Assembly (NCBI GenBank): GCA_011088145.1
Contig: JAALKG010000008.1
Span: 1-37,940, forward strand
Source of the DNA: Cyanobacteria bacterium MH1_Bin12
GTDB taxonomy: Bacteria; Cyanobacteriota; Cyanobacteriia; Cyanobacteriales; Cyanobacteriaceae
Direction: 5' to 3'
Length of the DNA: 37,940 bases
The notes under the pieces are model-generated. The model was not told the origin of the DNA and ran no database searches. It saw only the letters and a program-made list of their open reading frames with translations. Of this stretch, positions 22,580 to 29,279 are shown one piece after another. Numbering within the stretch: the stretch's first letter is position 1; each line of letters starts with the position of its first letter. The position numbers were made by a program, and so were the translations under genes.

Positions 22580-23347
22580 ATGGCAAGTTTAACAAGTCCA
22601 TTCGTTAACGACCCTATTGAGCTGCGTAAAAATTTTTCCGAAGATGATTTACAATTAGTCATCTCCGCAGTTTATAAGCAAGTATTAGGTAATATTGGCT
22701 TAATGGAAAGTCAGCGTTTAACCAGTGCAGAATCTCTATTAAGAAACGGAGACATTTCCGTACGTAATTTTGTCAGAATGGTTGCTCAATCTGAATTATA
22801 TCAGTCTAAATTTTTTAGCTCTAGTTCTCCTTATCGCTTTATTGAATTAAATTGTAAGCATTTATTAGGAAGAGCACCTGAAGACCAAGCTGAAATTTCT
22901 TCCCATGTTCAAACTTATAATGGAGAGGGATATGTAGTTGAAATCAATTCTTATATTGATAGTGAAGAATACAACAACAATTTTGGCGAAAATACTGTAC
23001 CTTATCCTCGTAGTGTCAGCAGTCAAACAGGCATTAAAAACATTGTTTTTAACCGTACTGTTTCCTTGTTAGGAGGTCGTGCTACTAGTGATAATAGTGG
23101 TCAAGCACAACTTACTTCTAGTATTGGTTCTAATATTTCTCAAAAAATCAAATTGGCATCTTCTGGTGTGAACAAAGGTTATGCTAACACAAGTAAAAAA
23201 TTTTGTATCGTTGTTAGTAAATCTGGTAAAACTCCAGTTAATAAACTAAGTAATGCTTCTTACGTTGTAAGTTATAGCAGCTTGTCAAAAAATATCCAAA
23301 ATATTCAGAAAAAAGGTGGTACGATCGTCAGTATATCTGAAGTGTAA
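22580..23347 (+). CDS. phycobilisome rod linker with CpcD domain (phycoerythrin-type)
   Basis: This 255-residue rod linker joins hexamers in a phycobilisome rod and tunes their energy transfer. The PBS-linker domain spans about residues 18-150 (VISAVYKQVLGNIGLMESQR, LTSAESLLRNGDISVRNFVR, ELNCKHLLGRAPEDQAEI, YIDSEEYNNNFGENTVPYPR). A C-terminal CpcD-like capping domain covers about 205-255 (KKFCIVVSKS ... NIQNIQKKGGTIVSI). The start MASLTSPF and the GDISVRNFVR pattern look closer to phycoerythrin linkers (CpeC/D/E) than CpcC, but I cannot say which. It heads the cluster linker-cpeR-linker-cpcL, 309 bases before cpeR. Confidence 0.88.
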   Translation: MASLTSPFVNDPIELRKNFSEDDLQLVISAVYKQVLGNIGLMESQRLTSAESLLRNGDISVRNFVRMVAQSELYQSKFFSSSSPYRFIELNCKHLLGRAPEDQAEISSHVQTYNGEGYVVEINSYIDSEEYNNNFGENTVPYPRSVSSQTGIKNIVFNRTVSLLGGRATSDNSGQAQLTSSIGSNISQKIKLASSGVNKGYANTSKKFCIVVSKSGKTPVNKLSNASYVVSYSSLSKNIQNIQKKGGTIVSISEV

Positions 23348-23656: not shown

Positions 23657-23962
23657 ATGTTACCTCCCGTAGCGAATAAAAAGATACAGGCATGGATTCG
23701 TACTCGTCATCTAGTTTGTTCAGAAAATGTTTTAGTTTTTGAAACTTTTGATGCTCCTACTCTGGATAAATTTGAAGAATGTATTAGTAGTTTAGGTGGT
23801 GAACTAATTTCTGTAGAACCTTTAAAAAAAGTTTGGCGTGGTAATCATCGGCAAGTAATTCTTTATCAAGCAAAAGCTATTTTAAATTCTTCGAATCACC
23901 CCATCAAACAATATTGGTATGAAAAGGGTAGTTTTTATACTCGTTTTGATGAGCGTTGTTAA
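23657..23962 (+). CDS. cpeR: CpeR-family regulator of phycoerythrin genes
   Basis: This 101-residue protein matches my memory of the CpeR family: MLPPxAxKKIxxWIRxRH at the start, then FETFDAPTLDKFEECISSLGG, SVEPLKKVWRGNHRQVILYQ and IKQYWYEKGSFYTRFDER. In Fremyella diplosiphon CpeR is needed to express cpeBA and is encoded in the linker operon cpeCDESTR. In Nostoc punctiforme cpeR1 sits with cpeC and cpcG2 under CcaS/CcaR control. Here it lies between two rod linkers, 51 bases before the second, probably co-transcribed. The mechanism of CpeR is not clear from sequence. Confidence 0.8.
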   Translation: MLPPVANKKIQAWIRTRHLVCSENVLVFETFDAPTLDKFEECISSLGGELISVEPLKKVWRGNHRQVILYQAKAILNSSNHPIKQYWYEKGSFYTRFDERC

Positions 23963-24013: not shown

Positions 24014-24958
24014 ATGTTAACTCAAATATTGAATTCTAAGCAAAATATTTCTTATTTTCCAACCAACAGTTCCACTGATGAAGTAGAAATAACCATTAAA
24101 GCTGTTTATAAACAAGTTTTAGGTAATGCTCATGTCATGGAAAGTGAAAGACTCATTTCTCTGGAGTCTAAACTAAAAAATGGAGAATTTACTGTTAGAG
24201 AATTTGTGAGACAACTTGCCAAATCAGAACTTTATCGTCGTTTATTTTTTGACAATTGTCCTCGTTACCGTTCTATTGAATTAAATTTTAAACATTTATT
24301 AGGACGTGCCCCCTCCGATTATACCGAGACTTTTGATCATAGCCAAATACTTGATCGAGAAGGATTTTTTGCAGATATAGATGCATATATTGATAGTGAT
24401 GAATATCAATCTATCTTTGGTGAAAATATTGTTCCTTATACTCGTGGTTATACTACACAAACAGGACAAAAACTACTTGGTTTTGTCAATATGTCTAAAC
24501 TATCAACAAGCCATAGTACTAGTGACAAAGCAGGAGAAACAGGAAATTCATCTAGAGTTCAAAAATTCTTAATGTACAATAACCCAACAGGTACAGCAAG
24601 ATCAACGGATGTTCAAACATTATTAAATGAAGTTTTCAAACCCAAACCAAAAGAAATTCCTGTTGTTGTTTCTCCTGCTTGGCAACCAACAAATAATCAA
24701 GCACAAAAACAAGAATCAATTCAATCATTGGAAAAACGATTTAGAGAATTACAAACACTAGCCTCCATTGGCAGTGGAATATTAGGCAATTGGTCAACTA
24801 ATCAAACTTCCACAGGCGATTTGAATACTAGTGCTTACAAAAGACCTCAAAATGATGAGCAAATTATTGCCTCTCTTAAAAGCCAAATAGCTGACTTAGA
24901 AAGAATTGCTGCTTTTGCTGAAACACAAATTAATAAATGGCGTAGTAAAACCTTTTAA
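24014..24958 (+). CDS. rod linker with novel C-terminal duplicated helix
   Basis: This 314-residue protein has an N-terminal PBS-linker domain (about residues 24-150: ITIKAVYKQVLGNAHVMESE, FTVREFVRQLAKSELYRR, LNFKHLLGRAPSDYTETF, YIDSDEYQSIFGENIVPYTR). The usual CpcD cap is missing. Instead there is a Ser/Thr-rich linker (about 165-235) and two similar helical segments, SLEKRFRELQTLASIGSG-ILGNW (about 236-258) and SLKSQIADLERIAAFAET-QINKW (about 288-310). These look like an internal repeat. It may be a rod-end or attachment linker; that is inference. It starts 51 bases after cpeR and lies 176 bases before cpcL. Confidence 0.85.
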   Translation: MLTQILNSKQNISYFPTNSSTDEVEITIKAVYKQVLGNAHVMESERLISLESKLKNGEFTVREFVRQLAKSELYRRLFFDNCPRYRSIELNFKHLLGRAPSDYTETFDHSQILDREGFFADIDAYIDSDEYQSIFGENIVPYTRGYTTQTGQKLLGFVNMSKLSTSHSTSDKAGETGNSSRVQKFLMYNNPTGTARSTDVQTLLNEVFKPKPKEIPVVVSPAWQPTNNQAQKQESIQSLEKRFRELQTLASIGSGILGNWSTNQTSTGDLNTSAYKRPQNDEQIIASLKSQIADLERIAAFAETQINKWRSKTF

Positions 24959-25134: not shown

Positions 25135-25860
25135 ATGTCTCTTCCTCTGTTTAATTATTCTTATTCAAGTCAGAATCAACGAGTTAACAGTTATGAAGTC
25201 GGTTCAGAAGAAACACCCATCATTTATAACTTAGATAACGTAATTGATAATACAGATTTTGATAATTTAATTCGCTCAGCTTATGTGCAAATTTTTAATG
25301 AACAACAGTTAATAAAAAGTAACCGTCAAACCTTTTTAGAATCTCAATTAAAAGATAGACAAATTACTGTTAAAGATTTTATTCGTGGTTTGCTTCTTTC
25401 TGACTCTTTCCGCAGACGTAATTATGAAGTTAATAATAATTATCGGTTTGTGGAAATGTGCATTCAACGTGTTCTTGGACGTGAGGTTTATGATGAACAG
25501 GAAAAATTAGCTTGGTCTGTAGTTATTGCCACTAAGGGATTAACAGCATTTGTTGATTCTTTACTAAATAGTGAAGAATACTTTGATCATTTTGGTCTTG
25601 ACACAGTTCCTCATCAAAGAAGAAGAATCTTGCTAGGGCGTGAAGTCGGTGAATTGCCCTTTGCCAGAATGCCTCGTTATGGAAAAGATCATCTTTCTCA
25701 ATTAAAAGCAATGGGATATTTTCCAAAAGTGTGGCAACCTTATTATCCACCTCAATTTGCTCGCACCATAGGTAAATTTATTACTATTGGTGGAGCAGCA
25801 ATTATAGGAATTGGGGTAGTTGCAGTCGCATTATCAGCTTGGGGAATTATTTCGTTATAA
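25135..25860 (+). CDS. cpcL: CpcL (CpcG2) membrane-anchored rod linker
   Basis: This 241-residue CpcG-family linker begins MSLPLFNYSYSSQNQRV, with the linker domain at about 40-165 (SNRQTFLESQLKDRQITVKD, FIRGLLLSDSFRR, NYRFVEMCIQRVLGREVYDE). It ends in a hydrophobic helix (about 218-240, FITIGGAAIIGIGVVAVALS). That C-terminal membrane segment marks CpcL, which anchors core-less phycobilisome rods to the thylakoid and feeds photosystem I, as opposed to CpcG1, which binds the allophycocyanin core. It closes the linker-cpeR-linker-cpcL cluster and is followed by a strong terminator. Confidence 0.92.
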   Translation: MSLPLFNYSYSSQNQRVNSYEVGSEETPIIYNLDNVIDNTDFDNLIRSAYVQIFNEQQLIKSNRQTFLESQLKDRQITVKDFIRGLLLSDSFRRRNYEVNNNYRFVEMCIQRVLGREVYDEQEKLAWSVVIATKGLTAFVDSLLNSEEYFDHFGLDTVPHQRRRILLGREVGELPFARMPRYGKDHLSQLKAMGYFPKVWQPYYPPQFARTIGKFITIGGAAIIGIGVVAVALSAWGIISL

Positions 25861-26999: not shown

Positions 27000-27665
27000 C
27001 TAAATATTTGTGTTTTTTATGGTATTAATTTTAACCAATGCCAATTTGATACGGGCTTTAATTGCTATTTCAGGATCATCATTAAATAATTCTTTTAATC
27101 TCGTTTCTATTCTCTGGTCAAAGTCAATTTTTTCGGCAGTTACCGTTAACGCTAATTGTTCTAATGCAACGATACTTGAATAACGTACCACCCATTCTCC
27201 ATCTTCTGTTACCAATAAAAGGGTATCCAAAATCAGTTCTTGGGTTTCATGGACTTTTGAGGGAGGTAATTTAGACCATCTAATAAAACCTAATCCTCTG
27301 GTTGCCGCTCGACGCACACTTAAGGAAAAATCACTACTCGCTGCTTTTAATAATAAATTTAATGCTTGAGGATCACCAACTCCTGCAAATACTCGAATCG
27401 CCCAAGCCCTTGCACCATAATTATAATCATCTAAACTTTCTAAAAGACAAGGTATACTCGGCTCTCCAATGTCAATTAGACCTTCTACTGCCGCAACGGC
27501 TGCACCAGGGTTATTATATCCTAAAACTTCGATGAGAGTCGGAATAGCTTCGATCGATCGAATTTCGGCTAAGGCTTCTACGGCATCTAATAACTTATCT
27601 GCTGAATCAGCTAAATTGACTGCTTCAATTAATTTTTCGTGATTTGGAAGATAATTTTGATTCAT
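27000..27665 (-). CDS. cpcF: phycocyanin alpha-subunit phycocyanobilin lyase, CpcF subunit
   Basis: CpcF pairs with CpcE to attach phycocyanobilin to Cys84 of the phycocyanin alpha chain. The 221-residue protein is built of HEAT-like repeats (LAEIRSIEAIPTLIEVLG, YNNPGAAVAAVEGLIDIGEP, DDYNYGARAWAIRVFAGVGD, FSLSVRRAATRGLGFIRW), and these blocks match CpcF as I recall it from Synechocystis. It starts 15 bases after the cpcE stop, so the two form an operon. In phycoerythrin strains CpeY/CpeZ are related, but the match here is to CpcF. Confidence 0.92.
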   Translation of the reverse strand: MNQNYLPNHEKLIEAVNLADSADKLLDAVEALAEIRSIEAIPTLIEVLGYNNPGAAVAAVEGLIDIGEPSIPCLLESLDDYNYGARAWAIRVFAGVGDPQALNLLLKAASSDFSLSVRRAATRGLGFIRWSKLPPSKVHETQELILDTLLLVTEDGEWVVRYSSIVALEQLALTVTAEKIDFDQRIETRLKELFNDDPEIAIKARIKLALVKINTIKNTNI

Positions 27666-27680: not shown

Positions 27681-28535
27681 TTATAATAAAGTATCCATCA
27701 AGTCCATTAGTTGGTGACTCGTAGAAGAAACAGTTATATCAGATTGAGAATCTTGATTGACTTGGTATTCTAGTAAACCTTTTAAGGATATTAACTTGAG
27801 GCTATTTTCAGCTAAAGTTTCTGCGATCGCATTTCCACCTTTTACATATCCAATCGCGCCTAAATCCATTAAAGCAGAACGACGTAATTGTAGCCCATCT
27901 CCTTCTAATGCTCGAACTAAAATTTCTCCATACTCAGAATCTTGAGTCAACTGATACATCGCTCTGGCTGCTGCATATTGCACTTTAGCAAAAGAATGGT
28001 TCAAAAAGGTTTCTATGAAAGGTATTGCTTCGGATGCATTTAAAGTTCCTAGAGCCTCAATAATAGCCTCATAAGGTTCTCTTAAATGAGGTTTATCCTC
28101 CACAGTTTCCATTGCTAAAGATAATAATTCTCCATCTTTAACCATTAATGTAAGAAATTTCATTAAAGGAGCAATTGCTTGTTTATCCCCCAACATTTCT
28201 AAAGCTTGAGCAGCAGATTCTCTAACGTAATAGTCATCACAATCCAAACATCTAATTAAAGCAGGTACAACTTTAGTGTTTCCTAATTTGCCTAAAGCTT
28301 TAGCCGCATTACGTCTTAAAGGATAACCTCCGTCTGAAGAACGATTTTCACTATCTTCTAAGGCTTCTAGCAAAGCATCAATCGCTTTTTCTTCCGTTAC
28401 TCGAAATTTACCTAACCACCATGCGGCATAATAGCGTTTGCCTAAATCTTCTTTTTGTTTTAAATTATCGACTGCTGTTTCTAAAGTTAAAACTTCCTGA
28501 GTATTAGAATCAGAAGGTTCTATTTCTTGATACAT
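27681..28535 (-). CDS. cpcE: phycocyanin alpha-subunit phycocyanobilin lyase, CpcE subunit
   Basis: CpcE is the partner of CpcF in the heterodimeric bilin lyase. The protein has HEAT/PBS-lyase repeats with the typical run KRYYAAWWLGKFR, DGGYPLRRNAAKALGKLG, DDYYVRESAAQALEMLGD, REPYEAIIEALGTL and VQYAAARAMYQLT, and ends LMDLMDTLL. I chose the ATG at 28535 (MYQEIEPSD, 284 residues) over the TTG at 28598, since the family starts about there and the extra residues are unlike it. It is followed by cpcF. Confidence 0.93.
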   Translation of the reverse strand: MYQEIEPSDSNTQEVLTLETAVDNLKQKEDLGKRYYAAWWLGKFRVTEEKAIDALLEALEDSENRSSDGGYPLRRNAAKALGKLGNTKVVPALIRCLDCDDYYVRESAAQALEMLGDKQAIAPLMKFLTLMVKDGELLSLAMETVEDKPHLREPYEAIIEALGTLNASEAIPFIETFLNHSFAKVQYAAARAMYQLTQDSEYGEILVRALEGDGLQLRRSALMDLGAIGYVKGGNAIAETLAENSLKLISLKGLLEYQVNQDSQSDITVSSTSHQLMDLMDTLL

Positions 28536-29279
28536 ATTTTTTATAGTTAAGATATTATTACTAGTGATATTTACCCAAATATACTGTGGACTTGTCAATC
28601 AGAATTGAGAATTACCGATGCTTGAAGTCATAGGCTTGACAAAACGATTTATGTTTTGTTCGTTTTCGTCTTAAAAGACGAGGCTTGTATTCCTATTTTT
28701 TCGGTCAATATCATTTATTTGAAATCCTTATTCAATAAAATTTCAACTCAATATGAAGTTATCAATATTTTCAAGGAATATTCTTCTCTGATTTATTATC
28801 TAATATTTAGCAACAACTTTATAACGAATTTTTAAATAGCTTTCATCTATGATTATTTCAATTTGTCTTCAGGGAAATAATTTAATAACTAGTTATACAA
28901 CTATCTTTTTCTTAATAAAAAATATTAAGCTAAAACAAAAGAATCTGTTGAGATGTAGAGATAGTGCGATCGCCTAATGTATATTTAAAAATGACGAAAA
29001 ATATGTTTTTGAAGATGCTTAAATTCCTTATTACATAAACAATACAAGAATTATAGTTTTTACTGATACTTCTTAGTTGTTTTATCTGACTAGAGTTGTT
29101 TTAATTTTTAGCTTTTCCTAAAACCGATCTTTTTCAATTACTCTTGATTATTTTTATATTTTACATAATTTAATATTTCAAGCTCTCAATCTAAGATATG
29201 TTTATTTAGAATATTTATGTTTAAACAACATAATAAAACTTAATAAAAACTTTTTGAAAATAAACAATAAGCAAAAAAA
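28536..29279. other. long intergenic region between cpcE and psaK
   Basis: 744 bases without a gene, holding divergent promoters. Near 28638-28680 are stacked hairpins: ACAAAAC-GATTTAT-GTTTTGT and the palindrome CGTCTT-AA-AAGACG (28667-28680). A dispersed repeat copy (28677-28698, minus) overlaps the end. The rest is AT-rich and plain. Confidence 0.5.
28677..28698 (-). repeat. dispersed 22-bp repeat, copy 2
   Basis: On the minus strand it reads AAATAGGAATACAAGCCTCGTC, three mismatches from the copy at 18135-18156. It abuts the palindrome at 28667-28680. Confidence 0.4.

Follow-up and report, generated by a model that had tools for sequence, protein, structure and literature searches.

In known cyanobacterial rods, CpcG attaches to the core and CpcL to the membrane, and the distal cap is provided by CpcD or FNR. 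Structures of phycobilisomes show that the PF00427 domain of the linkers fills the cavity of the hexamer and that rod-core linkers bind the core through their C-terminal extension (PMC8448738). The linkers of CpcL-based rods follow the order CpcL-CpcC1-CpcC2, with CpcD as the distal domain (PMC10322944).

We identified a different type of rod linker in a 37,940-nucleotide stretch of DNA from Cyanobacteria bacterium MH1_Bin12 (the window). The gene (24014..24958, + strand) encodes a protein of 314 amino acids that consists of one PF00427 (PBS_linker_poly, or REP) domain and a tail with two related helices, which we call KWR helices. The PF00427 domain (residues 20–144; 24071..24445, +; Pfam E=1.2e-50) has the fold of the rod linkers of solved phycobilisomes. 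As originally predicted, the protein lacks CpcD: Pfam finds no PF01383 in it, but does find this domain beside PF00427 in a neighboring rod linker of the phycoerythrin-linker type (22580..23347, +). Directly upstream of the tail linker gene is an ORF (23657..23962, +) that matches no Pfam or NCBIfam family and that we take to be cpeR-like. Directly downstream is a cpcL-like gene for a rod-membrane linker with PF00427 and a hydrophobic C-terminus (25135..25860, +). Genes for the bilin lyase subunits CpcF (27000..27665, −; NF058515) and CpcE (27681..28598, −; NF058502), both above their NCBIfam cut-offs, lie further along on the opposite strand. The genome also carries cpeBA and two cpcBA pairs. 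A CcaR-type G-box, for which we used the pattern CTTTNCNATTT, is absent from the window.

With the rod linkers CpcC, CpeC, CpeD and CpeE the window linker shares PF00427 and an operon context of cpeR and phycoerythrin-linker genes. However, these proteins carry a C-terminal PF01383 domain, where the window linker has its two KWR helices. The features common to it and CpcG or CpcL are PF00427 followed by a C-terminal extension other than CpcD, and cpcL is its next gene. In contrast to those proteins, it reaches only 113 bits against the NCBIfam cut-off of 420 for CpcG, and its tail has no transmembrane end. Moreover, 12 CpcG/CpcL rows are split off in the PF00427 tree by a branch with an SH-aLRT value of 100, and no tail linkers are found among them. 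Set against solved phycobilisomes, PF00427 with a non-CpcD extension would look like the arrangement of an attachment linker.

The best PDB sequence match of the window linker is CpcN. A similar arm follows each domain in CpcN, in CpcJ of Anthocerotibacter, and in Glr1262 and Glr2806 of Gloeobacter, and the first part of the window linker's own post-REP arm (residues 145–215; 24446..24658, +) is common to ordinary rod linkers and the CpcN arms. Proteins of this group have several PF00427 domains without CpcD, as do 28 of 76 tail linkers, whereas the window protein has one domain. They also lack the KWR tail, and their matches to our profile A2 end near position 84 of 190. A profile search of the PDB found no solved structure of the tail, the matches to phycobilisome chains ending after the first ~84 of 190 positions. 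Foldseek aligns the red-algal linkers LRC2 and LRC3 over their full length (PF00427 and a long C-terminal part), but at an rmsd of ~20 Å, so that likeness is shown for the PF00427 part only. We rejected both as homologues of the tail, since only PF00427 is comparable and the tail has no sequence match.

The two similar 23-residue segments that had been noticed in the tail lie at residues 238–260 (SLEKRFRELQTLASIGSGILGNW) and 287–309 (SLKSQIADLERIAAFAETQINKW), and the stretch of 26 residues that joins them contains seven Ser or Thr. They share 5 of 23 residues; no other two segments of the tail match each other better, and 2 of 300 shuffles reach or surpass this match. Judged from the window sequence alone, this is a modest case for duplication. 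The homologues settle the matter, and on that ground we accept it: both copies are present in 75 of 76 tail linkers, and in the 76-row alignment each position of the internal copy has its counterpart 49 residues further on in the terminal one (L239/L288, A250/A299, W260/W309), with Gly at position 253/302 in 72 internal and 63 terminal copies. Because the pattern used to scan genomes contained only the C-terminal copy, the second copy in these proteins is not a product of that selection.

In the AlphaFold2 model made with alignment A3, the PF00427 domain is predicted with confidence, and the tail forms two helices, residues 229–261 and 281–310, with a block pLDDT of ~88 across most of each. 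The first corresponds to the internal, diverged copy (24698..24796, +), and the second lies within the C-terminal KWR helix (residues 281–314; 24854..24955, +), which has an LNKWR.R.F-type end. Confidence is low in the arm (150–187) and in the Ser/Thr-rich, flexible spacer between the helices (residues 262–280; 24797..24853, +; low pLDDT at 264–275), which varies among homologues. In a fold search the window linker matches known rod linkers via its PF00427 domain. A test for hydrophobic periodicity was not significant for either helix.

The original prediction proposed a distinct partner for the duplicated helix, such as a membrane or photosystem component or another rod. The tail might bind a membrane or photosystem component directly, within CpcL-type rods, and cpcL is indeed the next gene in the window and at eight other loci; moreover, the tail linker of Xenococcus PCC 7305 ends a cpcBA-linker-apcAB-cpcL cluster that has no phycoerythrin genes. 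However, the majority of tail linkers do not adjoin cpcL, and by sequence neither helix is a hydrophobic transmembrane stretch, the internal one having a net charge of ~0. We consider such direct binding very unlikely. A distinct partner remains plausible, but the best candidate is a soluble coiled-coil protein that ends in the same motif as the linker; the tail may also associate with another rod.

Relatives of the tail region (query residues 144–314) occur across the order, and profile A2 covers 60 named loci from Nostoc, Moorena, Xenococcus, Pseudanabaena, Symploca and others. We obtained 76 distinct tail linkers, of which 48 have one PF00427 domain, 25 have two, one has three and two have seven. 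In every one of them, the last KWR copy ends no more than two residues from the C-terminus. W309 is invariant, and L306, N307, K308, R310, R312 and F314 are each conserved in more than 90% of rows. The internal copy retains W260 in 64 rows and A250 in 70, and it has WQS in place of the WRSR.F of the terminal copy. This conserved divergence suggests that the two copies have different roles. The possibility that the tail is unconserved is excluded by these data. Nor is it a known tail of ordinary CpeC or CpeD linkers, because CpcD in these operons belongs to separate, ordinary linkers and is found in none of the 76 tail linkers, an absence for which the scan selection may be partly responsible. 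The tail is real and conserved, and the protein that bears it is a variant rod linker for which a new family of partners is plausible.

In the PF00427 tree, the two tail linkers of phycoerythrocyanin type (loci L052 and L143) group with phycocyanin- and phycoerythrocyanin-type linkers, and the remaining tail linkers mostly group with those of phycoerythrin type. A single clade of tail linkers is rejected by the AU test (p=0.03), a weak test on 129 columns. This distribution fits a tail that has moved between linkers and is present on two linker backbones. Most of the genes follow cpeR: 50 of the 76 are directly downstream of it. The clusters around the two exceptional loci L052 and L143 contain divergent cpcBA-like genes together with lyase genes of cpcE/F type, and we read them as phycoerythrocyanin operons. 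The expectation that the tail occurs only in CpcL clusters did not hold, given this association with cpeR and the fact that cpcL is the next gene at only nine of 76 loci, the window included (it is just upstream at one more).

The C-terminal motif, I..LQ..IA....A.IGE..LNKWR.R.F-end, is also found in a second class of proteins, here named KWR proteins. Most of these have a short basic N-terminus, a putative CopG-like ribbon-helix-helix (RHH) and a coiled coil of highly variable length, and total lengths range from ~140 to ~870 amino acids. RHH_1 matches 13 of 22 KWR proteins (best E=1.9e-7); in others, such as those at L210 (142 amino acids), L217 (455 amino acids) and L207, no RHH is detectable and the coiled coil and motif are kept. 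The AlphaFold2 model of the KWR protein at L054 has two short helices where the RHH is expected, a beta hairpin and a long helix (107–221) that includes the motif. A fold search with the KWR protein model gave no significant match, to the RHH fold or otherwise. We found no known phage or NCBIfam family for the tail or the KWR protein, only generic coiled-coil matches, and no description of either in the family libraries and papers that we searched.

An HMM trained on five KWR proteins and no linkers scores the C-terminal copy of the window linker at 38.9 bits and the internal copy at 19.9 bits, compared with a top score of 6.9 bits among ~1000 shuffled tails, and it also scores both copies in nearly all other tail linkers tested. 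Coiled coils converge easily, which counts against reading a relationship into the shared motif, and the low-score PDB matches are themselves coiled-coil proteins. The tail could on this account be a generic coiled coil without a specific partner. However, the motif has 46 positions and those PDB matches stop after the first ~36, so the LNKWR.R.F end is not a feature of coiled coils in general. This end sits at the extreme C-terminus and contains the invariant W309, and 117 of 1949 ORFs have the pattern [ILV][NS][KR]W[RQ] within their final 14 residues, 116 of them being motif proteins. Convergence is the least probable of the explanations that we considered.

The genomic positions of the KWR genes link them to phycobilisomes. 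At 17 loci, in several families, the tail linker gene is immediately followed by a KWR/RHH gene; at 47 of 76 loci the next gene is neither cpcL nor a KWR gene. Eleven of 20 KWR loci are near phycobilisome genes (cpcU, cpcS, cpcL or cpcBA) compared with none of 20 random windows (p=1.5e-4), and after four loci previously known to be linked are dropped the count is 7 of 16 (p=0.0014). The gene order is cpcU-KWR-cpcS-cpcL at L054 and L158, and KWR-cpcS-cpcL at L188. Pfam confirms CpeS in such neighborhoods; the choice between the names cpcS and cpcU for the lyase genes is our own assignment. Across the order, the motif occurs in 128 of 293 genomes, 48 of which have a tail linker. Genomes with tail linkers usually have cpeR (44 of 48, versus 81 of 245 others; p=1e-14). 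In the other 80 of the 128 genomes, KWR proteins are present but tail linkers are not, and the linker is thus not the sole partner of these proteins.

An association of this kind could also arise if KWR proteins were CopG-type DNA-binding regulators of phycobilisome operons that are sequestered by the tail and so report unassembled rods. The RHH_1 matches and the frequent proximity to phycobilisome genes would be expected of such regulators. However, the proteins that keep the motif and coiled coil without a detectable RHH would not, and the spread in length is unusual for a regulator. We regard this regulatory coupling as quite unlikely.

The most likely explanation is that the tail, by means of its helix pair, docks rods of phycoerythrin or phycoerythrocyanin to a KWR protein or to a partner shared with it. 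PF00427 would occupy the cavity of a hexamer in the rod, most likely one of phycoerythrin and in a few relatives one of phycoerythrocyanin. The flexible arm and two KWR helices would then form a docking tail at the place where CpcD would be, leaving the hexamer to attach the rod elsewhere, as the extensions of rod-core and rod-membrane linkers do. We infer this direction, as well as any direct binding between linker and KWR protein. The coiled-coil KWR family is the candidate partner: its members end in the same helix, and their genes often adjoin those for tail linkers, CpcL and bilin lyases. The data point to these proteins as partners of the tail or users of the same receptor. RHH proteins dimerize and so bring two helices. 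One linker per hexamer would carry two helices in tandem, and these copies may give it the pair of helices that an RHH/coiled-coil protein acquires through dimerization.

The tails of neighboring rods might instead pair with each other, clustering rods or phycobilisomes side by side, with the KWR helix of the coiled-coil proteins serving their own self-assembly. The first half of the motif is coiled-coil-like and predicted to be helical, and relatives with two, three or seven PF00427 domains already resemble hexamer-joining linkers. Nevertheless, such bundling leaves unexplained the linkage of KWR genes to tail-linker and phycobilisome genes, and the conserved difference between WQS and WRSR.F suggests separate roles for the copies. 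We therefore think it unlikely.

Taken with the shared motif, its duplication, conservation and position, the absence of CpcD and the gene linkage, we put the probability that the window protein is a rod linker with a docking tail replacing CpcD, and the KWR family its candidate partner, at roughly 0.5. Several observations count against the partnership: at most tail-linker loci the next gene is neither cpcL nor a KWR gene, many KWR proteins occur without tail linkers, the Trp has been lost (KRR for KWR) from the Moorena KWR proteins encoded next to tail linkers, and the KWR/RHH gene of the window genome itself (L149:2285-3196, contig C143) is interrupted after codon 84 by an in-frame stop in what is an incomplete assembly. 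More tentatively, the coiled-coil KWR protein may hold or position phycoerythrin, phycoerythrocyanin or CpcL-type rods via the paired KWR helices of dedicated tail linkers, including those with up to seven hexamer-binding domains, as part of an undescribed phycobilisome-organizing system. The linker tail and the KWR end helix together suggest that antenna rods dock to a protein partner in an undescribed way. If correct, this would be a third, widespread C-terminal rod attachment beside CpcG and CpcL, common to an antenna-linked coiled-coil family, and would account for the placement or clustering of phycoerythrin rods.

Several further loci have unusual arrangements. Linkers of ~2008 amino acids with seven PF00427 domains, a KWR tail and no CpcD are encoded in Xenococcus (PCC 7305 and MO_188.B8) at L129:2523-8546, L132:2517-8546 and also L048. 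Multidomain linkers of that kind have been reported as confined to Gloeobacterales (PMC10696076, PMC12525769); linkers with several PF00427 domains and without CpcD thus exist outside this group. A linker of 1021 amino acids (L058:8079-11144) has four PF00427 domains and no KWR tail; of these domains, the fourth is one of the closest relatives of the domain in the window linker. At L042:5330-10307 (the same as L094, from Xenococcus PCC 7305), the order cpcB-cpcA-rod linker-apcA-apcB-cpcL-tail linker possibly specifies a self-contained rod-shaped phycobilisome with allophycocyanin. KWR genes lie beside cpcS-like and often cpcU-like lyase genes near cpcL or cpcBA at L054, L158, L188, L206, L210, L213 and L218; these span several families and include genomes in which no tail linker was found. 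Finally, a protein of 154 amino acids (L159:2874-3338) carries two copies of the KWR motif after a hydrophobic N-terminus that possibly spans the membrane, and its gene adjoins another KWR protein fragment.
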